From: Rhodopseudomonas palustris
GTDB lineage: Bacteria; Pseudomonadota; Alphaproteobacteria; Rhizobiales; Xanthobacteraceae
Reading direction: 5' to 3'
Assembly: GCF_007005445.1 (NCBI RefSeq)
Contig: NZ_CP041387.1
Span: forward strand, 2,232,001 to 2,296,000
DNA length: 64,000 nucleotides
This document shows, in pieces, positions 7,493-64,000 of this stretch. Position numbers and translations under genes: made by a program. The notes under the pieces were generated by a model. That model saw only the letters and a list, made by a program, of their open reading frames with translations, was not told the origin of the DNA and did no database searches. How positions within the stretch are numbered: position 1 is the stretch's first letter; the number at the start of each line of letters is the position of its first letter.

Positions 7493-8619
7493 GCCGCGGC
7501 CCTCATGTCCTCGGCGAGCGCCGCGAACAGTGAGGCAATCACCTCCTCCGACAGATTGGCGCTGAGCGCGATGCGCAGCCGCGCGGTGCCTTCGGGCACG
7601 GTCGGCGGCCGGATCGCGCGGACGTCGAAGCCGCGCCGCTGCAGCGAAGCGGCGAGCGCCACCGCGGTGCGGTTGGCGCCGACGATGATCGGCAGGATGT
7701 GCGAGCCGGACGAGGTGATGCCGCAGCGCTGCTTCAGTTCGCGATCCGCGAACGCGACCAGCGATGCGAGCCGCTCCCGCCGCTCCGGCCGGGTGCGGCT
7801 GATGTCGAGCGCCGCCCGCGTTACCGCAGCGATCAGCGGCGACGGCGCGGTGGCGAAGATGAACGGCCGTGCCCGGTTGACCAGGAAGTCGCGGACAATC
7901 TTGGGGCCGAGCACGAAGCCGCCCATGGTGCCGAGCGCCTTGCCGCAGGTGTGCAGCGTGATGACGTTGGGTCGCCCCTCGAATGCGGCGGCCAGTCCCC
8001 GCCCCTCCGGTCCGACCACGCCGGTGGCGTGCGCCTCGTCGATCACCAGCACGGCGTCGTGTCGATCCGCGACCGCGACCAGTTCGTCGAGTCGGGGGCT
8101 GTCGCCGTCCATGCTGTACACGCTTTCGATCGCGATCCAGGCGCGCCCGCGGCCACCGCCGGCACGCCACTGCCGCAGCCGCGTATCGAACGCCTCGACA
8201 TCGCTGTGCGGCACGCTCTCACATGTCGCGCGACCGCGGCGCATGCCTTCGTGCACGCTGGCGTGGATCAGTTCGTCGTACAGCACGAGGTCGCCGCGCT
8301 GCGGCAGCGTCGCGAAGATCGCGTGATTGGCACTAAAGCCGCCGCCGAGATACAGCGCGCTTTCCGCGCCGAAGTAATCGGCCGCTTCCGCTTCGAGCGC
8401 TTCGTGCTCGTCGTGATTACCTCGCAGCAGCCGCGAGCCGCCGGCTCCGATCGGCACGCCGCGCGCGATGGCGTCGGCGGCGGCCTGGCGCAGTTCGTCC
8501 GACTCGGCGAGACCGAGATAGTCATTGGACGTAAAGTCGACGCCGGCGCGCGGCTGGAGCTTGCGTCGCCGCCCGGCGTCCCCGAGTGAACGCAGATCGG
8601 CTTCAAGGCTCTGATACAT
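7489..8619 (-). CDS. bioF: 8-amino-7-oxononanoate synthase
   Basis: A 376-residue alpha-oxoamine synthase that condenses pimeloyl-ACP (or -CoA) with L-alanine to give KAPA, the first ring-building step for biotin. Visible segments are [55 protein letters not shown] and the PLP-lysine segment LHTCGKALG. It is the first gene of this operon. No bioB lies upstream, and I found no BioR-type operator in the 146 bases before it, so the operon's regulation is not apparent. Confidence 0.95.
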
Positions 8620-8765
8620 TGATGATCGTCCCGGAGGTGCAGCCGATCGCCAGACGGAATATCGACGATCAGACCTCCTGCCGTCGCAGGTGTTGAAGTT
8701 CGAAGGCGCACGACCGCGACGCGACGACGGTTCGCGCCGCTGCGGTCGGTCAGCGCAAGCCTTGC

Positions 8766-9344
8766 TTAGCGCTCGGCGTCGGTCTCGTCACCGTCTTCTT
8801 CATAGCCGCGCTCGGATGGCCCCATCACGATCTCGTTGCGCAACGCTTCGAACCGGCGACGCGTCTCGGCGTCGCGAGCCTCGATCAAGCCGATCGCCTC
8901 GCGGCGCGACAGCGGGCCGGTGGTGATCGGATGGACGCTGGCGCCGATGGTCTCGTCGACGAAATAGCCGCGCTCGTCCCGCCGCATCCGCCACTTGAAC
9001 CGGAGGGCATCCAGCGGACCCGGCCCTTCGCGGGTGTAGCGCTCGAGATCGTCGTCACCGTCGTCGTCGCCCGCGGAGACGACCTGCTCGGGCTCGTTTG
9101 CCGGATTGACTGCCGGTTCGTCCGCCGGCTCGGCATCGGACTCCTGCTCGGCCCAATCCGCATCGGGGGTCGCTTCGGACTCAACAGGCTCGTCGTGACG
9201 CGTGTCGGCATCGGACGGCGGCTGGACGGAGGACGATCCCTCCTCCGGCACCGCTTCGTCTCGCGCCTCCGCCTTGGCGTCGGGCTTTTCGAAGATGCTC
9301 GCGATCGCCGCGAGCGCTTCATCGGTTGGGTCGTTGGCAGTCAA
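8766..9344 (-). CDS. Hypothetical protein, acidic linker plus conserved basic C-terminal region
   Basis: About 192 residues if the TTG at 9344 is used; this start has a GGGGGAG ribosome site seven bases upstream and gives MTANDPTDEAL. The first 110 residues are strongly acidic and low in complexity (Asp, Glu, Ala, Pro), probably disordered. The last 75 (from GPGPLDALRFKWRMRRDERG) are ordered and charged, with a LSRREAIGLIEARDAETRRR helix. No membrane or signal segment is present. I do not recognise the family. It lies downstream of the amidase in the same direction, 89 bases away. Confidence 0.6.
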   Translation of the reverse strand: MTANDPTDEALAAIASIFEKPDAKAEARDEAVPEEGSSSVQPPSDADTRHDEPVESEATPDADWAEQESDAEPADEPAVNPANEPEQVVSAGDDDGDDDLERYTREGPGPLDALRFKWRMRRDERGYFVDETIGASVHPITTGPLSRREAIGLIEARDAETRRRFEALRNEIVMGPSERGYEEDGDETDAER

Positions 9345-9433
9345 TACAAGGCTCCCCCAGCTCCGACCCGAAGAACCTCTCCGGGCCGAGCACGTCAACG
9401 CCGACAATGGTCGCTGGTTTCTATTTTGTGTGG

Positions 9434-10864
9434 CTATGTCGAGGCGCAAACCGGCGGACGCCGATTTTTCCACGGGCGTTCGCGTTCGAGCTGCGCAGCG
9501 AGACGCAAGAGCGTCGCTTCATCGCCGAACCGGCCGGCGAACATCATGCCGATCGGCAACCCGCCCGCACTCCAGGCCAGCGGCACCGACATTGCCGGCT
9601 GCCCGGACATGTTGGCAAGGCTGGTCCCCGGAATATACCGGCGAAGCGTCGGGCTGATCCCTGACAGATCCCGCGCCATGGTGTCGATCTCGCCGATCCG
9701 GAGCGGCAACGCGCACAGCGTCGGCGACAGAAACACGTCGACGCTCGCGAAGAACTCCGCCAGCGCCCGCGAGATCTGAAACGCGATCAGCTCGGCGGCG
9801 CAGTAATCGACGCCATTCGCCTTGCGCGCATTGGCGGCGGACGCCAGCGTCAGCACTTCGAAGTCGCGTTCGGTCATCGGCCGGCCGAAGGTCTGCTCGG
9901 CGAGCCGCACCGCAAGACCGGTGTTGCAGGCGACGATGGTGGCGATCACCTCCGCCGGATCAGCCGGCAGCACCGGCGCGCGCTCCTCGACATGATGGCC
10001 GAGGCCTTCGAGCAGCTTGGCCGTATCACGCACCGCTGCGGCGATTTCGGGATCGATCGGATCACCATAGGTCGAGCGATCGCTGAACGCGATCCGCAAC
10101 CGTCCCGGCTCGCGGCCGACTTCGTCCGCGAACGGCCGCTCCGGCGGCGGCGCGACGTAAGGGCTCGACGGCTCGGGGCCGTGCAATGCGTCCAGCATCG
10201 CGGCGCTGTCGCGCACGCTGATACTCACCACATGGCCGCAGGCGAAGCCGCCCCAGCCGGCGCCGCGGTCCGGCCCGATCGGATTGCGCGCCCGGGTCGG
10301 CTTCAGACCGAACACGCCGCAAGCCGAGGCCGGAATCCGGATCGAGCCGCCGCCGTCGCTGGCATGCGCCACCGGCAGGATCCGCGCGGCGACTGCCGCC
10401 GCAGCGCCGCCCGACGAGCCGCCGGAGGAGTGATCAATATTCCACGGATTGCGGGTCGGCCCGTGCAGCCGCGACTCGGTGGTCGGCATCAGACCGAGTT
10501 CCGGGCTGGCACTCTTGCCGAACACGGTGACGCCGGCATTCAGAAAGCGCTGCGCCAGCGTGCCGGTGTGCGGCGCGACGAAGTCCTTGTAGAGACTGGC
10601 GCCGAAGGTGGTGCGGGTGCCGGCGATCAGATCGAGATCCTTCAATAAAAACGGCACGCCCTTGAACGGGCCGTCCGGCAGACCGGCTTCGACCTGCTTG
10701 CGCGCGTAGTCGTCGTGGCGGACGACGACCGCATTCAGCCTGGGATCGACCGCCTCGGTGCGCGCAATCGCCTCGTCGAGCAATTCGGCCGCCGTGACCT
10801 GCTTGCTCCGCACCAGCTCGGCGAGGCCGACACCGTCGTAATCGCCGTACTCCTTGAACGCCAT
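9434..10864 (-). CDS. Amidase (amidase-signature family)
   Basis: A 476-residue cytoplasmic amidase-signature hydrolase. The Ser-cisSer-Lys triad can be placed: Lys75 in LLKDLD, cis-Ser150 in HSSGGSSGG and nucleophile Ser174 in [10 protein letters not shown], with the family's usual 24-residue gap between the two serines. Relatives include 6-aminohexanoate-cyclic-dimer hydrolase-like and aryl-amide hydrolases; the substrate cannot be told from sequence. The ATG at 10864 begins [18 protein letters not shown], a normal start for the group. The upstream gap carries a dispersed repeat. Confidence 0.88.
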
Positions 10865-54051: not shown

Positions 54052-54726
54052 CTACAGCAGCCGGCCGGCCATGATGTAAAGCGGCGCCAGCACGATGAAC
54101 GCCGCAACGAGGAGGCAGGCGAACGCCCTGCCCCACGGTCCCGGTTCGGCCGCCTGCATGTCGGCATAGCTGTCGACAGGCTTTCGGCCGGTGATCATCG
54201 CCTGGATCAGCGGTTCACGACTGAACAGCGCGTAGATCACGTTGGCGGCGACGTGCACCACCACGAAGATCTCGATCGCGGTGAAGATCCGCCGGTGCCA
54301 GAGCGTGGCGCTCTCGACGGCGGCATCGGAGACCGTCTTGGCGAGCGGCCCGTCGATGATCAGACGATCTTCGTCACCGGAAAACAGGCCACTGGTGGCC
54401 ATCGCCAGCACCAGCGCCAGCAGCGCCACCACCATCCAGCCGCCGAGCGGGTTGTGACCGAGAAACTTCTTCTTGTCGGCGATGTAGGCCATCACCTTGC
54501 CGGGCATCGCCACGAAGCTGCCGAACCGCGCCGTCGACCCGCCGACGAAGCCCCACAGGATCCGGAACACGATCAGCACCAGTGCGGCGTAGCCGTTGAG
54601 CTTGTGCCAGGCGGGGAAGCCCCCGCCATATCTGTTGCTGATCCAGCCGTCGACGACGACGAGGACGAGCGCCCACTTGAAGACGCGCGTGGGCCCGTCC
54701 CAGGCGACGACGCTCGCTTCCTTCAT
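54052..54726 (-). CDS. Cytochrome b561-family membrane cytochrome
   Basis: A 224-residue membrane cytochrome with four or five helices. Histidines lie at the places expected for haem ligands: WHKLNGYAALVLIV in helix 2 and FVVVHVAANVIYAL in a later helix, with a WHRRIF histidine at its start. The N-terminal WDGPTRVFKWALV is the family start, although the usual His there is Phe-Lys. It lies 3 bases after the cytochrome c' gene, so the two form one operon and probably one electron-transfer pair. Confidence 0.85.
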   Translation of the reverse strand: MKEASVVAWDGPTRVFKWALVLVVVDGWISNRYGGGFPAWHKLNGYAALVLIVFRILWGFVGGSTARFGSFVAMPGKVMAYIADKKKFLGHNPLGGWMVVALLALVLAMATSGLFSGDEDRLIIDGPLAKTVSDAAVESATLWHRRIFTAIEIFVVVHVAANVIYALFSREPLIQAMITGRKPVDSYADMQAAEPGPWGRAFACLLVAAFIVLAPLYIMAGRLL

Positions 54727-54729
54727 CCG

Positions 54730-55170
54730 TCAGCTCTTCTTGGCGCGGAAATCGTCGTGGCACGACTTGCAGGTGCCGAACACGCTGCCCATGCTCGCCT
54801 TGAGCGAGGCTTCGTCCTTGACGCTGCCCTGAGCCGCCGTGGCAGCCGCCGCCAGCTTGGCGAACAGATCGTCGAACTTCGCCTTGTCGTCCCAGATCTT
54901 CGGAAGCGCAGCGGTGTCTCCGCCTGTCTTGGAATCCGCAGGGAAAAGCGCAGGCAGTTTCTTCGCATCATCCGCGATCGACGCCAGCGATTTCTGCACC
55001 ACCGCTTGGTCGAACTTGGCCTCGCCCTTCATCATCGCGGCGATCGGCTTGGTCGAGTCGCCCATCTGCTTCAGCATCGCCTTGCGCTGCGCGATCACAT
55101 CGGTCTGCGCAACCGCGACGCCGCTGACCAGGACAGCCAGACCAGCAATAGTAACGATTCTCAATTTCAT
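54730..55170 (-). CDS. Cytochrome c'
   Basis: A 146-residue exported four-helix cytochrome. The Sec signal ends near VSGVAVAQ, and the haem motif CKSCH is at the C-terminal end (FGTCKSCHDDFRAKKS), as is usual for class II cytochromes. Cytochromes c' bind NO and protect against it. The ATG at 55170 follows a GGAAAGGAT site. It is co-transcribed with the b561 gene; a GTGAC-N3-GTCAC site lies about 140 bases upstream. Confidence 0.9.
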   Translation of the reverse strand: MKLRIVTIAGLAVLVSGVAVAQTDVIAQRKAMLKQMGDSTKPIAAMMKGEAKFDQAVVQKSLASIADDAKKLPALFPADSKTGGDTAALPKIWDDKAKFDDLFAKLAAAATAAQGSVKDEASLKASMGSVFGTCKSCHDDFRAKKS

Positions 55171-55797
55171 CTCTTCAGATCCTTTCCCGATCATTCGGAT
55201 CGTCGCGGATCGCCGCGACGACGACAGCATCACCCATGCGGGTGCGTCATTTCCATGGCCGCGAACGTCCAGGATCAAAGACTCGCACACACAACCTGAC
55301 ACTGCAGTGACAACGTCACAGACGAGGACGAGCCATCACGTGATTCGCCACCCCGGCTCGTTTCCATATCGCTGCGCCGACACAGCCGCAAACCGCCGAC
55401 GTCAGCCGACCGCAACGACCGCCACAGGATCGCCCCCCGAGTCCGGACGCGCGCTGGCGTCAGCCGAGACACATTGTCCCGCCTGCCTTCGTCGAGCCCG
55501 CGCCGGCCACAATCCGATGCCGCTCAAATGATACACGGTACGGTGACGGACGGCCGGACGCCGGCTCGCAGAGTGGTCACCCGTCACGGGGTCGCGCTTC
55601 TCCGTCTTGCTACTCAGTCCGACTTTCCAGCGATTCTAAAATTCACGGAGAAGCCTGTCGGGCGAGACGGTTACGCCGAACGCCGGCGTCTGCTGCACGC
55701 GTTGCGCGAGGGTATGAAATTGCTGCCCCCTCGCGTTGTTGGTAGGCGGGACCGGCATCCCGTCCTCCCTGGTTCGTCAGGCAAAACCGGCTCCGAC
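55171..55797. other. Divergent intergenic region, no gene supported
   Basis: A 627-base gap between cytochrome c' and the FmdE-like gene. It contains the palindrome at 55307-55319 and an overlapping CACTGCAGTG. A long frame continues upstream of the FmdE-like start, but its residues are not protein-like. Confidence 0.5.
55307..55319. promoter_or_regulatory. Palindrome GTGAC-AAC-GTCAC upstream of cytochrome c'
   Basis: The third copy of the motif also found before cydA and the SQR gene. Flanks also match (CAGTGAC...GTCACAG). Confidence 0.5.
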
Positions 55798-56325
55798 ATG
55801 ATCAATGCTATCGAGTTAGTCCCCTCACTGACCGTCGGGGGCGAGGAAGACCTCATTGACATCCGCTTCGACGCGGTCGCGGCGTATCACGGCCATTCGG
55901 CCCTCGCGATGCTCGCGGTGACGTTTCAGGCGCTGCGCCTGATGCTGCCGGCGCTGTCGCCCGAGCGACCGCCGCTTCGCACCGATCTCATCGTCGTCAG
56001 CGGCCATCCCGGCCCCGGCGTGCGCGACGCCTTCGAATTCGTCACCCGCGCAGTGACCCGCGGAGTCTACACCGTCGACCGCGCGCTGCCGCATGCGCGG
56101 CTGTGTCCGGGCGTCGACATGTCCTATAGCTGGCGGCTCTCGGCGGGCGACCGCAGCGTCGGCGCCGCCCTGCGCGCCGGCGTGGTGCCGGAGCGGTTCT
56201 TCGAACTGATCGCCCGCGGCGGCGCCCGCAGCGACGCAGAGAACGTCGAGCTGTCGGCACTGAAGCGACGTGTTGCCGACGACGTGCTGGCCGCGGCGCC
56301 GGACACGCTGTTCGACCGGCTGTGA
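55798..56325 (+). CDS. FmdE-like protein (uncertain), first gene of the NifH-linked cluster
   Basis: A 175-residue cytoplasmic protein. The segment FDAVAAYHGHSALAMLAVTF and the later VSGHPGPGVRDAFEFVTRAV recall the FmdE/FwdE family (HGHxCPG... and a second glycine-rich region), but the cysteines of that family are missing. Start chosen at the ATG 55798 (MINAIELVPSL); it has only a weak ribosome site. It is followed within 16 bases by the next gene. The link to FmdE is tentative and no reaction is proposed. Confidence 0.5.
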   Translation: MINAIELVPSLTVGGEEDLIDIRFDAVAAYHGHSALAMLAVTFQALRLMLPALSPERPPLRTDLIVVSGHPGPGVRDAFEFVTRAVTRGVYTVDRALPHARLCPGVDMSYSWRLSAGDRSVGAALRAGVVPERFFELIARGGARSDAENVELSALKRRVADDVLAAAPDTLFDRL

Positions 56326-56341
56326 TCCGAACGGCACGACC

Positions 56342-56944
56342 ATGAAGACCATCATTCGCCCGTTCTGCGGCCACAGGACATCGTCGGCAGCCTGGGCCGA
56401 ACGGCTCACCGGTCTCGACTGCAGCATTCGCGATGTCGATCTCTATACGCTCGATGCCGCGCTGCTCGGCAGCGCCGACGCGCTGCTGATCGGCATGCAC
56501 ATGGACCAGCGCTTCCTGCAAGCGAACACCGCACTGCTCGACGACTACGTCGCTGCCGGCGGCCGTGTAGTGATCAGCGGGCACATCGCCCACCCGTTCC
56601 TCACCGGCCTTTCCCCGGTGCAGCCGCTCGGCGGCGGCATCGCCGACCTCACCGTGTCGCGCGCCGCCCCGCATCCGATCTGGGACGGCGTCGCGCTCGA
56701 CGACCTCACCTTCCGCCGTGGCGTCGCCGGTTTCTATGGACACGCCTGGCACAGCCCGCCGGAGGGCGCGACGGTGATCCACACCCTCGGGCCGGACGCA
56801 CGTCCGCTCGATTTCATTTATCGCGTCGGCCGCGGCGAGGTGCTGATGCACGGCGGCAACGACCTGTGGAGCTTCGGCGGCGACGACTCGACGCGGCGCC
56901 TGCTGCCGCAACTGATCGCCTGGCTGGTGGAGGCACGCCCATGA
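56342..56944 (+). CDS. Amidotransferase-fold-like protein 1 (function unknown)
   Basis: A 200-residue protein with alternating strand/helix pattern. DALLIGMHMDQRFL, DYVAAGGRVVISGHIAHPFL, and GEVLMHGGNDLWSF fit a class I amidotransferase/ThuA-like Rossmann fold. There is no nucleophile cysteine in the expected GxCxG position, so amidotransferase chemistry is unlikely. Its stop codon overlaps the next gene by four bases (ATGA). Confidence 0.55.
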   Translation: MKTIIRPFCGHRTSSAAWAERLTGLDCSIRDVDLYTLDAALLGSADALLIGMHMDQRFLQANTALLDDYVAAGGRVVISGHIAHPFLTGLSPVQPLGGGIADLTVSRAAPHPIWDGVALDDLTFRRGVAGFYGHAWHSPPEGATVIHTLGPDARPLDFIYRVGRGEVLMHGGNDLWSFGGDDSTRRLLPQLIAWLVEARP

Positions 56945-57570
56945 CCGTAGCTGTTCTCGACGGCGGCACCTATTATCATCACGAGACGATCTTCGGCGAC
57001 CGCTTCCGCGACCGTTTCGATCGGGTGATCTATACCCCGGCGCTGACCGCGGACGATCTCGCCGAACCGACGCTGCTGATCGTGCCCGATCGCAGCAATC
57101 CCGAACTGATGCGACAGCATCGGCCTCTGCTGAACGAGTTTCTCGCCCGCGGCCGGACCCTGGTGGTGCTCGGCGAAAGCGACGCCGAGACCTGGGCCCC
57201 CGGCGTGCGCGCCGCACCGCGCCCGACAAATTTCTGGTGGTGGCTCGACCCCGCGCAGAAGCCGCCGCACCAGTTCGTCGCGCCCGATCACGAGATGTTC
57301 GGCCACGTCGCCCCGGCCTCGACGATCTGGCACATCCACGGCGTGCTGTTTCCGCCGGAGGGCGCGCAGCCGCTGGTCACCGTTCCGGAGGATCGCGACG
57401 GCCGCGATCCCGGCGGCGCGCTCCTGTACGACGACCGCATCTCGACGCCGGGCCGGCTGATCGTCTCGACGCTCGATCCGTTCTATCATCACGGCAGCCG
57501 GTTCATGCCGGCGACGACGCGCTTCCTCGACGGCTTCCTGCGCTGGGCGCAAGCCGCCGCGCGATCATGA
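56941..57570 (+). CDS. Amidotransferase-fold-like protein 2 (function unknown)
   Basis: A 209-residue protein with the same style of fold as its neighbour: VAVLDGGTYYHHE at the start, LLNEFLARGRTLVVLGE in the middle, and IVSTLDPFYHHGSRFMPATTRFLDGF near the end. The YYHHE and YHHGS histidine pairs may bind a metal. No catalytic cysteine. It overlaps the previous gene (ATGA) and meets the ABC ATPase gene tail to tail, their stop codons being adjacent at 57565-57570. Confidence 0.55.
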   Translation: MTVAVLDGGTYYHHETIFGDRFRDRFDRVIYTPALTADDLAEPTLLIVPDRSNPELMRQHRPLLNEFLARGRTLVVLGESDAETWAPGVRAAPRPTNFWWWLDPAQKPPHQFVAPDHEMFGHVAPASTIWHIHGVLFPPEGAQPLVTVPEDRDGRDPGGALLYDDRISTPGRLIVSTLDPFYHHGSRFMPATTRFLDGFLRWAQAAARS

Positions 57571-58335
57571 TGGCACAGCGCCCGGTGCGTCGGTCACCAG
57601 CCGATGCACCGGCACGGTCGCTTCGATCCGCTCGCCGTCCGCCACGATCGTGACACGGCGCACCGTCACGCCGTAGAGGCGCGCCAGATTGGCTTCGTCG
57701 AGCGTCGTCGTAGCGGGGCCGAACACCGGCTCGCCCGCCATCATCAGCACCTTGTCGGCCACCGCCAGCGCGTGGTCGGGATGATGGGTGGTGAACACCA
57801 CGGTCATGCCGTCGTCGCGCACCAGCCGGCGGATCAGCCGCAGCACCACGCCCTGGTTGGCGAGATCGAGTGCCGAGGCCGGCTCGTCGAGCAGCAGCAC
57901 CCGGCAGTCGCAGGCCAGCGCGCGGGCGAACAGCACGAGCTGGCGCTGGCCGCCGCTCAGCCGGTCGTAACGCCGTTCGGCGAGCTCGGCGATGCCGACC
58001 GCGTCGAGACAGGCTTCGGCGCGGGCGAGATCGCGGCGGCCCGGCGCACCGAACCGGCCGAGATAGCGGCTGCGGCCGAGCAGCACCATATCGATCACCC
58101 GGTAGCCGACGTCGCCGCGCAGCGCCTGCGGCACCACGCCGACGACGCCGTCGACGCTGATCCGGCCCTGCTTCAACGCCAGCGTATTCGCGAGCGCGCG
58201 CAGCAACGTCGTCTTGCCGCAGCCGTTCGGCCCGAGTATCGCGGTCGCCTCGCCCTCCGCCACCGCGAACGACAGATCGCGAAACAGCCATTGCTCCGGC
58301 CGGAACCAATGCCCGGCCTGCTCGACGCGGATCAT
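57565..58335 (-). CDS. FecE/BtuD-type ABC importer ATPase
   Basis: A 256-residue ATPase of the iron-siderophore/cobalamin/molybdate importer group. Walker A is GPNGCGKTTLL, the signature is LSGGQRQLV, and Walker B is VLLLDEPASALD, followed by FTTHHPDHAL. The ATG at 58335 overlaps the permease gene by four bases. It completes an importer with the two genes upstream. Confidence 0.9.
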   Translation of the reverse strand: MIRVEQAGHWFRPEQWLFRDLSFAVAEGEATAILGPNGCGKTTLLRALANTLALKQGRISVDGVVGVVPQALRGDVGYRVIDMVLLGRSRYLGRFGAPGRRDLARAEACLDAVGIAELAERRYDRLSGGQRQLVLFARALACDCRVLLLDEPASALDLANQGVVLRLIRRLVRDDGMTVVFTTHHPDHALAVADKVLMMAGEPVFGPATTTLDEANLARLYGVTVRRVTIVADGERIEATVPVHRLVTDAPGAVPS

Positions 58336-59423
58336 GCCGCCTGCCCTCTCGCATGCCGGCGCAGCAACCAGGCGAACACCGGCGTGCCGACGATCGCGGT
58401 GACGATGCCGACCGGAATCTCCGCCGCCGACAGATCGCGCGCCAGCGTGTCGGCCGACATCAGGAACGCCGCGCCGGCGACCGCCGACACCGGCAACAGC
58501 CGCCGATGATCGGCGCCGACCACCATCCGCACCAGATTGGGAATCACCAGGCCGACCCAGCCGATCGTGCCGGACACCGCGACCTGCGCCGAGATCGCCA
58601 GGCAGGTCGCGGCGAGCAGGATGACGCGGTCGCGGCCGGGCTCGACGCCGAGCGCACGCGCTTCTTCGTCGCCGAGCGACAGAACGTTGACGCGCCAGCG
58701 CATCGCCAGCATCACGCCGCCACCGGCGATGGTACACGCCGCCAGCAGCGCCAGGTTCGGCCAGCTCGCCGCCGCGAAACTGCCGAGCAGCCAGAACACG
58801 ATGCCGGGCAGCTTCACTTCCGGATCGGCGATGAAGGTGACGAAGCCGACCAGCGCGCCGCAGAACGCGCCGACCACGACGCCGGCGAGCACCAGCGTCA
58901 GCACCGGCGAGACGCCGTCGCCGCGATGCACCAGCAGCACCGCGGCGAGCGCCAGCGCGGCACCGCAGAACGCGCCGAGATGCACCGGCAGTCCGAAGCC
59001 GAACAGCAGAATCGCCACGACGCCGCCGAGCGACGCCCCGGATGCGGCGCCGATGGTCTGCGGCCCGACCAGCGGATTGCGAAACATGCCCTGCAGCACC
59101 GCGCCGGACAGCGCCAGCCCCGCGCCGGCGATGCCGGCCATCAGCACCCGCGGCAGCCGCACCGTGGTCACCACGATCCGCTCGGTCGGCGTCCAGTTCG
59201 CGGCGGCCCAGCCGGGCGGCAGCCAGCCGGACGGGTCGAGCCCGACGAGGCTCAGACAATCGTGCAGCAGAATGCCGAACACATGCGCCGTCGGCACCTG
59301 ATAGCGCCCGGCCGAGAGGCACAACATCGCCGTTGCGATCGGCAACAGGATCAACGCGCCGATCGCGATCGGAGCAGTGATCGATCGGGCGGGACCGACC
59401 GTGGCAGCGTCGAGCGTACTCAT
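58332..59423 (-). CDS. FecCD-family ABC importer permease
   Basis: A 363-residue permease with about ten membrane helices. Family landmarks are VRLPRVLMAGIAGAGLALSG, GMFRNPLVGPQTIGAASGAS, GWVGLVIPNLVRMVVGADHRRLLP and the C-terminal PVGIVTAIVGTPVFAWLLRR. It serves as the channel, probably as a homodimer, for a chelated metal, haem or cobalamin-like ligand. It overlaps the genes on both sides by four bases. Confidence 0.92.
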   Translation of the reverse strand: MSTLDAATVGPARSITAPIAIGALILLPIATAMLCLSAGRYQVPTAHVFGILLHDCLSLVGLDPSGWLPPGWAAANWTPTERIVVTTVRLPRVLMAGIAGAGLALSGAVLQGMFRNPLVGPQTIGAASGASLGGVVAILLFGFGLPVHLGAFCGAALALAAVLLVHRGDGVSPVLTLVLAGVVVGAFCGALVGFVTFIADPEVKLPGIVFWLLGSFAAASWPNLALLAACTIAGGGVMLAMRWRVNVLSLGDEEARALGVEPGRDRVILLAATCLAISAQVAVSGTIGWVGLVIPNLVRMVVGADHRRLLPVSAVAGAAFLMSADTLARDLSAAEIPVGIVTAIVGTPVFAWLLRRHARGQAA

Positions 59424-60511
59424 CGCGCCGCCGCAAATCGTGCGTAGCCGGCGGAGCCGCCGTTCTGCCGCGCATGCAGGATGTCGTCGATCTCGCTGTC
59501 GACCAGGGCGTGATCGTACAGGAACGAGTACCAGGCGCGCATCTCTGCGCGCAGATCGGTCGCGACCAGCGCCGGATGCAGCAGCGCCGCGAGCCAGGTC
59601 CAGGCCAGTGCCGACTCGTGGCTCGGGGGATCCCAGCGATAGCCGCCGAGCGGAATGCGATATACCCGCCGATCCCTCACCGCCGCGACGCCCTGCAGCC
59701 GCGGATCGCGATACAGATCGTCGGGCGTCGCCGTATCGAAGTTACCGAGCAGGATGACGTCCGGATTCCACACCAGCATCTGTTCGAGCGTGACGGTGCG
59801 GCTGCCGCCGATCTCGCCCGCCGCGTTGCGACCGCCTGCCGTGCGAATGACGAAGTCCGAATAGGTGTCGCGGCCGGCGGCGGCAAACGAGTCCGACGCC
59901 CGCGACAGATGCAGCACGCGCGGACGCTCGGCATCGGACAAGGCGCCGAGCGCGGCGGCGAGCGCGTCGCGCCGCTGCCGCTGCCGTTCGACGATCGCGG
60001 CCGCGCGCGGCGCCTGCCCGGCGAGCCGCCCCATCATCATGATCGCGCCTTCGACCTCGTCCTGGCCGCCGTAGCGCAGCCCCAGCACGGTCAGTCCGGC
60101 GCGGTCGAGCATCGTGATCGGCTCGTCGCCCGACGTCGCCCATTGCAGCACCGCGTCAGGATGCAGCGCCATGATCGCCTCGACATTCGGCACCACGCCG
60201 GCACCGCGGGTGATGCCGGTCGGGATCTTGTCGAACGACGGAAAGATGCGGCCGAGAATACCGGACTGCATCGCGCTCGCGGAGGCCGGGTTCATGCCCG
60301 CGACATGCGCAGCCGAGCGGTCGACCGCCATATAGGTCGAAGGCGCCGGCATCGGCAGGAATACGACCCGCTGCGCCGGCGTGGCGACCGCAACCGTGCG
60401 GCCACGCTGATCGGTGAGCTCGCCGGCATGCGCCGAGCCGAGCATCGCCACGGCGACGACGCCGATCACGACAGCAGCTAATGATCTCGTCCGACGCGAC
60501 GATCGCAGCAT
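59420..60511 (-). CDS. Periplasmic metal-chelate binding protein (BtuF/FecB type)
   Basis: A 363-residue helical-backbone binding protein. A signal peptide lies in LAAVVIGVVAVAMLGSAHAG. Body landmarks are the start RGRTVAVATPAQRVV, NVEAIMALHPDAVLQW, LEQMLVWNPDVILLGN and the end part YSFLYDHALVDSEIDDIL. ATG 60511 (MLRSSRRTRSL) is preferred because a GAGGG site is 11 bases upstream; an ATG at 60568 is possible. It presents the ligand to the FecCD/BtuCD-type channel. Confidence 0.88.
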   Translation of the reverse strand: MLRSSRRTRSLAAVVIGVVAVAMLGSAHAGELTDQRGRTVAVATPAQRVVFLPMPAPSTYMAVDRSAAHVAGMNPASASAMQSGILGRIFPSFDKIPTGITRGAGVVPNVEAIMALHPDAVLQWATSGDEPITMLDRAGLTVLGLRYGGQDEVEGAIMMMGRLAGQAPRAAAIVERQRQRRDALAAALGALSDAERPRVLHLSRASDSFAAAGRDTYSDFVIRTAGGRNAAGEIGGSRTVTLEQMLVWNPDVILLGNFDTATPDDLYRDPRLQGVAAVRDRRVYRIPLGGYRWDPPSHESALAWTWLAALLHPALVATDLRAEMRAWYSFLYDHALVDSEIDDILHARQNGGSAGYARFAAAR

Positions 60512-60850
60512 CAATTCAGAGACCCTCGAAACACCGGCGATCCCGCGCCGGACACGATGTGTCTTCATAGGGCGACGATACGCAAACGCAAAACCAAAAC
60601 ACCGCCGCTGCGCCCGAAGACCGGGGCCGCAGAATAGAATCGCTCAACGAGTGAACGCATCAGGTTGCGGGCATTGCTAATCGCACCTGCTCGGAACGGA
60701 TCAATCAGAACGGACCCGCGATTTGTAATGTGTCGAAGTTTGCATCCGCATGGTGGTAGCCCGCCCGCGCGCTAACGTGGGGATGGTGGTGAAGCGGACG
60801 GCGACTCGCTAATGACCCAACTCACTAATGTGAGCTGGGGGACATCGATT
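60512..60850. other. Divergent control region of the importer and receptor
   Basis: The gap holds the promoters of the importer operon (minus) and the TonB receptor (plus). Two 12-base near-copies (ACTCGCTAATGA at 60804, ACTCACTAATGT at 60820) are spaced 16 bases apart, and CTCACTAATGTGAG (60821-60834) is an inverted repeat. No Fur/Irr box or cobalamin riboswitch was recognised. Confidence 0.45.
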
Positions 60851-63190
60851 ATGATTCAAAGGGCATTCACACTCGACTCCAGGAGACGCGCATTGCTCGC
60901 GTCGACGTGCGGCTTCAGCATCGCGCTGGCCTGCGCGATCACGGCAGGTTCGGGCGTCGACGCGCGCGCGCAGACCGCGGAGGCTGCCACGCAGCGCACG
61001 CGCCACGTCTTGCCGGAAGTGCGAGTGGAGTCCGCGAACTCATCGAGACCACGGCGCCAGGACGGATCCGGTGCGGGACGCGCGACGCGGCGGACGGCGA
61101 CGCCAGCGCGAACCCAGACGCAGACGCAGCAGGCGACGGTCGCCACCTCCGGCACGACGAACGACAATTCGCTCAGGCCGATGGGCGGCAAGCTGCCGCA
61201 GGCTGGTATCCCGCATCCGGCGCAGCAGAGCATCACCGTGGTCGACCGCGCGCAGATCGAGCAGACCAGCCCGACCAGCCTGCTCGACATTCTGCAGAAC
61301 GTCCCCGGCGTGTCGATCGCGCGTGCCGGCGGCATCGGCGGTCAGATTTATCTGCGCGGGTTCTCGTCGAACAATTGGCGCTCGCCGATGTATATCGACG
61401 GCGACCGCTTCCGCGGCCGCAACACGCTGCAGCTCAATTATTTCGCGCCGGAGGAAATCGAGCGCGTTGAAGTGATCCGCGGACCCGGCTCCGTGGTGTA
61501 CGGCTCTGAAGCGATGACCGGCCTCGTCAACGTCGTCACCCGGCGGCCTCAGGTCGATCCGTTCGGACCGTGGCGGATCGCACATGGCGGGTTCTCGGCG
61601 GGCTACAGTTCGGTCGACAACGGATTCAGCACCTATGAATGGGCGCAGGCGGCCGGACTCGGCTTCGACGTGCTCGGCGGCATCAGCTATCGCAAGGGCG
61701 GCAACTATCAAACGCCGAGCGGCGCCGCGCTGAACAGCGACTACGAGAGCATCGGCGGCAATCTGCGGCTCGGCTGGTCGCCGACCTACAACCAGCGCTT
61801 CGAGTTGACGCTGCGTGATTATTGGGAAGAAGACGGCCGCGCCGGCGGCGTCGGCGGCGCCCCGGGCGCGCCGTACACACAAGTGCGGCAGCAGCCGAAC
61901 CAGGTTCACATGGCCAAGCTGTCCTATTCCGGCGACTTCACCGATCAGTTGGTCCAGCACGTCGAAGGCTCGTTCTACGCCAATTACTTCGACACCAAGC
62001 TCTCCACCGTCAATACCGCCACGGCCGGGGTCGTCACCCGTTCGGTGAGCAACGTCGGCGGCCCGCTGGTGATCGGCGGCCGCGCCCAGGGTGTGATCCC
62101 ATGGGAGCCGGCGCCGTGGGGCCTGGTGAAGACGACGTTCGGCATCGACGGTTTCCAGGAATGGCGGCCCGGCAGCACCTCGTGGTCGGTGCGGCAGACT
62201 GCGACGACATCGACGATCTCGCCGGAAACCAAGACGGCTCCGGACAACACCCAGGCCAATGTCGGCGCTTTCGTGCTGAACGAGTGGACCCCGCTCAAGC
62301 TATTGACGCTGTCGGCCGGCGGACGGTTCGACTGGTTCAATACGACATCCGAACTGTCGCCGGTCAGTTCGACGAAGGCGCTTGAGGTGCTTCGCCGCAA
62401 CGCCGACGTCAGCACCACTGCGCCGACCGGCAGCTTCGGCGCCACCGTTCACGTGACACCGATCCTCGACCTGCTCGCCTCGGTCGGCACCTCCTATCGC
62501 TATCCGACCAATTCCGAGTTGTTCACCTTCTCGGCCACCACAATTCCGAATCCGGAGCTGAAGCCGGAGACCGGCCTCACCTACGAGGGCGGCTTCCAGC
62601 TCAACTTCCCGACCGCCACCGTCAAGGTGACGGCATTCGACAGCCACTACGCGAACTTCCTGCAGACGGTGTTCGTCAACTACAACGGCTCGTCGATGAC
62701 GCAGCGGCAGAACGTCGGCCATGCCACGGTCAACGGCGTCGAGGCCGAGTGGCGCTGGCAGGCGACGCAGTCGTTCAACCTGTACGGCAACGCCGCCTGG
62801 CTGCAGGCCACCAACACCGATACCGACACACCGCTGCCGTTCATCGCGCCGTGGAAGGGACGTGTCGGCGTGCAGTACGCGCCGCTCGGCTCCGGCTATT
62901 CGCTGGGCGCGGCGGTCGACTGGGCGGGCGCGAAGACCCGCATCAGTTCCACCGAGGAGTATCCGACCGGCGGTTACGCGGTTCCGAGCATCTACGCGTC
63001 GTTCGATCTCGGCATTCTGATCTCGCCGCGCCTCGGCGACACCAAGGTGCATCTCAGCCTGCAGAACATCTTCGACACGTCCTACGTCAGCGCAGCGACC
63101 TACGTGAACAGGTCGTATCCGCAGTCGATGTACAACCCGCTGCTGGAGCCCGGCCGCAACTTCACCGCCCGGCTCGTCCACACCTTCTGA
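60851..63190 (+). CDS. TonB-dependent outer-membrane receptor
   Basis: A 779-residue receptor. After a signal peptide (hydrophobic core near residues 17-35, ALACAITAG) comes a 100-residue low-complexity linker, then the plug domain ([67 protein letters not shown]) and a 22-strand-type barrel ending FTARLVHTF. The ATG at 60851 has GGGGG about nine bases upstream; an earlier ATG at 60812 lacks one. It takes up a siderophore-, haem- or cobalamin-like ligand and is divergent from the matching ABC importer. The NifH-like gene follows it after 83 bases. Confidence 0.92.
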
Positions 63191-63201
63191 TGACGCGGTT
63201 T

Positions 63202-63254
63202 GGCGCCGCTCCTCTCGCCGCGGCGGCGTTCGCCGACGAGCCAAGAGCGGCGCC
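63202..63254 (+). terminator. Long stem between the receptor and the NifH-like gene
   Basis: GGCGCCGCTC (63202-63211) and GAGCGGCGCC (63245-63254) are perfect 10-bp complements, with a GC-rich loop that can pair further. There is no T-run, so it may be an attenuator or RNA-stability element instead of a terminator. Confidence 0.35.
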
Positions 63255-63273
63255 GGATTCGTGGAGAATGTCC

Positions 63274-64000
63274 ATGAAGAAGATTGCCATTTACGGCAAA
63301 GGCGGTATCGGCAAGTCGACCACCGTCTCCAACCTGTCGGCCGCGCTGGCGCGGCGCGGGCTTAAAGTGATGCAGATCGGCTGCGATCCGAAGGCCGATT
63401 CCACCAAGGGACTCACGGGCGGCCAGCCGATCACCTCGGTGCTCGACGTGCTGAAGGTCAAGAAGACCAGATCTACGCTCGACGACCTGGTGGTCGAGGG
63501 CGATCTCGGCGTGCTGTGCGTCGAGGCCGGCGGGCCGACACCGGGCATCGGCTGCGCCGGCCGCGGCATCATTTCGGCGTTCGACCGGCTGGAGGAGCTC
63601 GACGCTTGGGGCAGACTGCGTCCAGACGTGGTACTGTTCGACGTGCTCGGCGACGTGGTGTGCGGCGGCTTCGCGATGCCGATGCGCAAGGGCTATGCCG
63701 ACGAAGTGGCGATCGTCAGCTCCGGCGAGATGATGGCGCTGTACGCCGCCCACAACATCGCCAACGCACTCGCCAATTTCGCCACCCGCGGCTATGCGCG
63801 GCTCGCCGGCGTGATCCAGAACTCGCGCAACATCGCCGACGAGGACGAGCTGGTGCGGCGCGCCGCCGCCGAAATCAACACCCGTGTGCTCGGCATCATC
63901 CCGCGCTGCGACCTCGTGCAGCAGGCCGAGGATCAGGGCCGCACCGTGGTGGCGTGTTTTCCGGATTCGCAGCAGGCCGCCGTCTATCACGAATTGACGC
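63274..64000 (+). CDS. NifH-like (nitrogenase-like) reductase ATPase, cut by window edge
   Basis: The first 242 residues of a NifH/BchL-family protein. It has the P-loop [11 protein letters not shown] (residues 7-17), [11 protein letters not shown], and the two cysteines that bind the bridging 4Fe-4S cluster: Cys94 in GIGCAGRGI and Cys130 in [10 protein letters not shown]. Arg97 is the position ADP-ribosylated in Nif[13 protein letters not shown] replaces the usual VEPGGPEPGVGC. The ATG at 63274 follows a GTGGAG site. It donates electrons to a NifDK-like partner, presumably encoded beyond 64000. Nothing else typical of nif, bch, vnf or anf clusters is present, so it belongs to an unassigned nitrogenase-like group (Mar/Nfl-type possible). 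Confidence 0.9.

Follow-up and report, generated by a model that had tools for sequence, protein, structure and literature searches.

At the right-hand end of a 64,000-nucleotide stretch of DNA from the photosynthetic bacterium Rhodopseudomonas palustris (contig NZ_CP041387.1, positions 2,232,001 to 2,296,000; this whole stretch is called the window below) lies a block of ten genes, in which a nitrogenase-like trio, nflHDK, stands next to genes for a TonB-dependent receptor, an ATP-binding cassette (ABC) importer and three small proteins (an FmdE-fold protein, GAT1 and GAT2); eight of the ten are inside the window, and nflD and nflK lie past its edge. The gene set, its conserved residues, the clade to which NflH belongs and the linkage of nflHDK to the importer across genomes are established below. 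Our leading interpretation, held tentatively and at somewhat short of even confidence, is that nflHDK encodes a two-component nitrogenase-type reductase, driven by ATP and anaerobic, whose substrate is a metal chelate supplied by the linked importer. The chelate would enter through this ABC importer, with the TonB receptor added in some Gram-negative hosts; NflH with ATP would pass electrons to a [4Fe-4S]-type cluster that NflD and NflK hold between them, one for each pair; and NflDK would reduce the imported complex, thereby freeing or activating it. The FmdE protein, GAT1 and GAT2 would handle the same cargo as a second module in the cytosol, one that can also serve where nflHDK is missing. 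The steps as far as the cluster are predicted from conserved residues and homology, and the substrate step is suggested by the linkage.

That linkage was measured in a scan of one genome per species, made with an alignment of 32 NflD proteins, which gave 106 confirmed loci; counts over loci refer to the best 80 of these, which are related by descent and not independent. The 80 loci span four phyla, and nflH and nflK both adjoin nflD in 77 of them. Where at least 5.5 kb is present on both sides of nflD (45 loci), a FecCD permease gene lies within 7.5 kb every time (45/45), and substrate-binding protein (SBP), permease and ATPase are all present in 44; over all 80 loci the permease is found in 67 and the full trio in 63. 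Of the 13 loci without a permease gene, 11 (L038 and L042 among them) have a flank that ends within 4 kb on one side or both; L026 and L032 make up the rest and are true or nearly true exceptions. FecCD genes number 2–10 per genome in ten host genomes of 2.3–6.9 Mb, and by a rough estimate about 2% of random 15-kb stretches would contain one, so chance falls far short of explaining the link. In most of the clostridial loci shown, nflHDK, SBP, permease and ATPase follow one another on one strand, and in Sulfuritalea (L021) SBP, nflHDK, permease, ATPase, GAT1, GAT2 and orfA do so, with all ten families present; two Rhodoplanes loci match the R. palustris block in all ten genes. Hosts include gut, rumen and termite bacteria by their record titles (the termite origin is partly deduced). 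The pairing of importer and nfl genes is met again in gut, termite and soil bacteria, a recurrence that suggests a role for the enzyme in chemically reducing something that the cell takes up.

The nflH gene (63268 or 63274 to 64065, + strand, crossing the window edge; all coordinates are window positions, verified by translation, unless a locus is named) encodes a protein that matches PF00142 with 302 bits, and it begins 77 or 83 bases after the stop of the receptor gene, depending on the start chosen. A preliminary description of the window had reported a NifH-like ATPase with an intact P-loop and both cluster cysteines, 83 bases behind a TonB receptor gene, and had expected a NifDK-like partner to its right; that partner is indeed there, as two PF00148 proteins (81 and 80 bits; cut-off 28.6) encoded directly downstream of nflH and outside the window, NflD (64062-65387, 441 amino acids [aa]) and NflK (65397-66611, 404 aa). 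Since nflH and nflD overlap by 4 bases and nflD and nflK are spaced by 9 bases, the three genes look co-transcribed. The P-loop and cluster residues Cys96 and Cys132 are invariant in all 78 aligned NflH rows, our own row counted, apart from one P-loop glycine that is kept in 77 of the 78.

Five strong NifH-type proteins are encoded in the R. palustris genome; from gene order and partners they appear to be NifH, a second nitrogenase H protein (called AnfH), BchL, BchX and NflH. In a tree of 55 H-subunit rows, which has no BchX row and in which BchL rows were named from gene order, NflH and 25 relatives form one clade (support 96/99) apart from NifH/AnfH (99/98); the BchL rows split off at 100/100, and the single MarH row also falls outside the NflH clade. 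Grouping with true NifH or BchL, and uptake genes that do not co-occur with the NifH-like gene elsewhere, were the two outcomes that the preliminary description had named as contrary to its proposal, and neither came about. Among NCBIfam models NflH scores best with CfbC (326 bits, cut-off 402) and next with NifH (318 bits, cut-off 394), and its top matches in the PDB are MarH at 252 bits and, close behind, NifH at 250.

C65 and C125 of NflD are present in 80/80 rows, and C37 and D14 of NflK in 79/79; C36 of NflD, present in our own row and some others, is found in 28/80. In an alignment that includes the genome's own Nif, Anf and Bch proteins, NflD C65 and C125 align with NifD Cys88 and Cys154, and NflK C37 with NifK Cys95. 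The ligands of the iron-molybdenum (FeMo) cofactor are absent from all 18 NflD rows of a distant alignment, which have a gap at NifD Cys275 and T, S or A at His442. The cysteine set of NflDK, two or three in D and one in K, is of the [4Fe-4S] type, and both FeMo-cofactor ligands are missing. The AlphaFold model of NflD (mean predicted local confidence, pLDDT, 88.8) shows the usual fold of component-1 proteins, and chains of nitrogenase beta, DPOR (dark-operative protochlorophyllide oxidoreductase), NifEN and Mar match it equally well.

Known enzymes of this family were considered and set aside. NflHDK is not taken for a NifHDK, VnfHDK or AnfHDK nitrogenase, because the FeMo-cofactor ligands are missing and NflH lies outside the NifH/AnfH clade; nor for DPOR, because NflH lies outside the BchL clade; nor for CfbCD, because NflH scores below the CfbC cut-off and a K-type protein is present. 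For MarBHDK and IsrBHDK the linked radical S-adenosylmethionine (SAM) protein, B, was not seen: a motif scan within 6.5 kb at 81 loci, whose reach is the neighbourhood of nfl genes and not a B gene elsewhere in the genome, found CxxxCxxC-type motifs in eight scattered open reading frames of at least 180 aa and no conserved partner. In addition, the pattern of one Cys in D and three in K, taken for Isr from a published description rather than from sequences (PMC11423573), is not that of NflDK.

The importer lies on the minus strand and consists of an SBP of the Peripla_BP_2 family (59420-60511; PF01497, 78 bits), a FecCD/BtuC-type permease (58332-59423; PF01032, 269 bits; top NCBIfam model BtuC, 258 bits, cut-off 461) and a FecE/BtuD-type ATPase (57565-58335; PF00005, 94 bits). 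It is thus of the FecBCD/BtuFCD type, as had been proposed, and the Pfam matches of these three proteins, of NflH, NflD and NflK and of the receptor all exceed their cut-offs. In a 70-row alignment the SBP conserves N109 and E111 (70/70), R292 (69/70), W248 (67/70), and Y291 and W293 (64/70 each), and no His, Met or Cys is conserved at 90%. An organic chelate would fit this better than a bare metal, and conserved Arg, Trp and Tyr together with the use of a TonB receptor point to a large chelate. The nearest solved structure of the SBP is 4ovk (E 1.1e-46), and weaker PDB matches include the nickel-binding protein chains 4ino and 4ls3. The receptor gene (60851-63190, alternative start 60812, + strand) encodes a protein with PF07715 and PF00593 domains, whose top NCBIfam model is TonB-hemin (230 bits, cut-off 317). 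The hallmark of heme receptors is a His between the FRAP and NPNL boxes; none of 11 receptors (from the window, eight congeners and two Rhodoplanes) has one, which speaks against a heme receptor.

Clues to nickel or cobalt as the metal are thin, and we take them as a hint; the family models were run on representatives. Five spirochaete loci (L025, L026, L027, L029 and L034) have a NikB-like permease gene that points away from nflH and is followed by a fused NikCDE-like gene, four of the five also have a NicO-type protein, and L032 has a NikC-like permease at the corresponding site; the SBP_bac_5 protein linked to the NikB-like genes scores higher with an oligopeptide than with a nickel model. 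In L026, CbiM-CbiQ-CbiO genes (7763-10293) lie directly 3' of nflK and replace the FecBCD importer; the nearest solved structure of this CbiM is 4m58, the nickel protein NikM2. Ten of 81 loci have a CobW/HypB-like GTPase gene (Pfam run on one member) close to nfl, and their hosts encode 2–8 such GTPases per genome; in L040 and L072 this gene, an ABC ATPase gene and an SBP_bac_6-like gene form one line directly upstream of nflH (for L072, by gene offsets).

That NflHDK reduces an imported chelate is thus supported by the permease found at 45/45 well-flanked loci, by the shared strand and order in clostridia and L021, by the Ni/Co-type neighbours and CobW/HypB-like GTPases of some loci, and by conserved cysteines without FeMo-cofactor ligands; the [4Fe-4S]-type relatives DPOR, chlorophyllide a oxidoreductase (COR) and CfbCD reduce tetrapyrroles. 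The preliminary description had suggested a reductase acting on, or needing, an imported metal-tetrapyrrole or chelate; the clade, the partner and the uptake linkage bear this proposal out in part, and the naming of a metal-tetrapyrrole as cargo gained no such backing. An extension to which we give little credence makes NflHDK an anaerobic metal-salvage enzyme that attacks an imported nickel or cobalt tetrapyrrole reductively, so that the ring releases its metal. If so, F430, corrinoids or metalloporphyrins shed by neighbours would be among the cargoes, the enzyme would do without oxygen, and on a nitrogenase fold, what heme oxygenase does with it, and FmdE-GAT1-GAT2 would be the alternative module in hosts without NflHDK.

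Several observations weigh against the chelate reductase. The receptor, detected by BLAST with the window's receptor, is present in only 4 of the 80 loci (L019, L020, L021 and L023); Bacillota and Spirochaetota account for many of the other hosts, and a number of loci are short. At L032, nflHDK stands without a FecCD gene in flanks of about 5 and 10 kb, and L038 and L042 have none in 2.5–3.9 kb downstream or about 10 kb upstream. The Ni/Co-type neighbours occur in a minority of loci, several score below NCBIfam cut-offs, and those of the spirochaetes may reflect one inherited event; 21 nfl loci and 8 blocks without nfl yielded no cobalamin or Ni/Co riboswitch at Rfam thresholds, and we know of no ligand for any of the binding proteins named above. 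Finally, the block occurs without nflHDK: 8 of 15 congeners share its seven genes for receptor, importer and the three small proteins (orfA, GAT1, GAT2) at 78–96% identity, and the 15 congeners have no NflD beyond weak 24–28% matches in three. Six further family members have the seven-gene block at lower identity and no nfl hit in the 17 kb covered (the binding-protein gene of L199 reads as two pieces). A close copy of NflD is found in the window's own genome and two others among 149 genomes of the family.

A block of receptor, importer and small genes without nfl implies that the cargo has another use too. Importer, receptor and small genes make one system and importer and nflHDK another, and the window strain, Rhodoplanes and Sulfuritalea have both; in these, one importer may feed two cytosolic modules, FmdE-GAT1-GAT2 and nflHDK.

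The most serious competitor, unlikely in our estimate, is that the imported metal serves NflHDK itself or a metal-insertion pathway, the metal or chelate going into the NflDK active site or its assembly. Coupling of metal transport to cofactor assembly was proposed by Dos Santos et al. 2012 for such genes (PMC3464626), and the CobW/HypB-like GTPase, ABC ATPase and SBP_bac_6-like genes next to some loci would suit it. The ligands of the known complex cofactor are missing from NflD, however, no conserved radical SAM partner of the NifB kind was found nearby by motif, and the SBP lacks conserved His, Met or Cys.

Less probable still is a role of NflHDK as a reductase in metal delivery to nickel or cobalt enzymes, or in their maturation, with the importer as metal source. 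The Ni/Co-type transport genes and GTPases would fit, as would a nearby P-loop protein, for which the models give only the CbiA/ParA superfamily and which reads as CooC-like; these neighbours are, however, confined to a minority of loci. In three genomes (L198, L200 and L202) nitrile hydratase genes precede the seven-gene block and share the strand of orfA, and this hydratase carries a VCTLCSC motif, presumably of the cobalt type; yet 26 of 30 genomes have a nitrile hydratase, which in 23 has no block next to it, and the three block sites share their flanks. Hydrogenase maturation genes also lie beside nitrogenase-like genes of this kind in Coprococcus, according to Dos Santos et al. 2012 (PMC3464626).

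We consider very improbable a sulfur-scavenging C–S reductase like Mar or Isr, for which the importer would bring in an organosulfur compound. MarH is the best PDB match of NflH, barely ahead of NifH, and Isr works with an imported sulfonate, but no radical SAM partner recurs among the neighbours by motif, the cysteine distribution is unlike that of Isr (PMC11423573 for both Isr points), and the importer is of the FecBCD and not the Ssu or Tau type. That nflHDK in this genome rides as a passenger next to an iron or chelate uptake block with which it has nothing to do, as its absence from the block in 8 of 15 congeners might suggest, is hardly credible given the same ten genes in two Rhodoplanes genomes and the importer link in four phyla.

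The remaining genes of the block are the three small ones that the preliminary description had left unassigned, all on the plus strand. The product of orfA (55798-56325, 175 aa) has no Pfam family and matches FmdE proteins in structure; those of GAT1 (56342-56944, 200 aa; DUF7408 17.8 and DUF4350 17.3 bits, both below cut-off) and GAT2 (56941-57570, 209 aa; DUF4350 20.7 bits, cut-off 30.4) appear ThuA/DUF4350-like by weak scores, and some GAT1 homologues bear the UniRef name 'ThuA-like domain'. These genes (55798-57570) converge on the importer (57565-60511), which is divergent from TonB-nflHDK, so the block is not one operon here. A Mrp-type antiporter set comes after nflK on the opposite strand, and cytochrome c' and cytochrome b561 genes (54052-55302) lie upstream of orfA; in two congeners (L147 and L148) the b561 gene is on the TonB side, where the block seems inverted. 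Between importer and receptor genes (60512-60850) a short palindrome (e.g. CTCAC-TAAT-GTGAG) lies just 5' of the TonB gene start and is perfect in 6 of 11 aligned rows. Two relatives have pairs of other FmdE-like genes beside an ABC ATPase (L204:7252-10968 and L205:7913-12091), with the rest of the block absent.

Individual nfl loci have further features. One Cellulosilyticum contig (L041 and L086) has two nflDK-importer sets within 28 kb, with GAT1 and GAT2 between them, and closely linked paired copies are described for Coprococcus and Dorea by Dos Santos et al. 2012 (PMC3464626). A class I SAM methyltransferase gene lies between nflD and nflK in L025 (11335-12108); the gene after nflK in L042 (12484-13740) does not encode a binding protein and looks P450-like by eye. 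L035 (3378-4295), L037 and L039 have an nflHDK-linked protein that matches the C-terminal [FeFe]-hydrogenase domain (65 bits for L035), with cluster motifs that look degenerate by eye. A Crp/Fnr-type regulator gene lies near nflH in 15 loci (e.g. L057:8516-9178; Pfam run on L057 only).

For this clade, which occurs in gut, rumen and termite bacteria, we found no assigned function, and its NifH sequences should be left out of any tally of nitrogen fixation. The near-fixed link to one importer class offers a direct way in: once the SBP ligand is found, the substrate is likely to follow. Among the open-licence literature matches listed, none described a nitrogenase-like enzyme with a TonB receptor or FmdE/ThuA genes as neighbours.

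Among known systems, the nickel uptake route of Helicobacter (TonB receptor, CeuE-NikZ, FecDE) shares the TonB receptor, class III binding protein and FecCD importer, but works without a nitrogenase-like enzyme. DPOR (BchLNB) and COR (BchXYZ) resemble NflHDK in their ATP-driven NifH-type donor, heterodimeric acceptor and [4Fe-4S]-type cluster without FeMo-cofactor. Their own pattern is three Cys in one subunit and one ligand in the other; in NflD the third Cys, C36, is kept in only 28/80 rows. NflH, however, lies outside BchL, the genome has its own bchLNB and bchXYZ, and no biosynthesis genes are linked to nflHDK. CfbC is the top-scoring model for NflH, but Cfb has no K subunit, and NflK scores only 13 bits with the Cfb catalytic model. 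Group IV enzymes with known reactions are few, namely Cfb, Mar and Isr (PMC11423573); isethionate reductase (IsrBHDK) and methylthio-alkane reductase (MarBHDK) are likewise H-D-K enzymes, and Isr relies on an imported substrate, but they differ in the B partner, importer class and, for Isr, cysteine distribution. A further close parallel is the red clade of group IV of Dos Santos et al. 2012, known since then with ABC transporter genes beside a few members and no function given; it includes Methanocorpusculum (Mlab_1040/1039), Desulfitobacterium (Dhaf_1539/1540), Coprococcus catus and Dorea longicatena, and in the part of that paper available neither TonB receptor, FmdE or ThuA-like genes nor the generality of the link is mentioned (PMC3464626). 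Its Cys at aC88 and aC154 in D, and at bC95 only in K, is the pattern of NflDK, likened here by that description rather than by the clade's sequences; both combine a NifH protein with two component-1 proteins, two conserved Cys in D and one in K.

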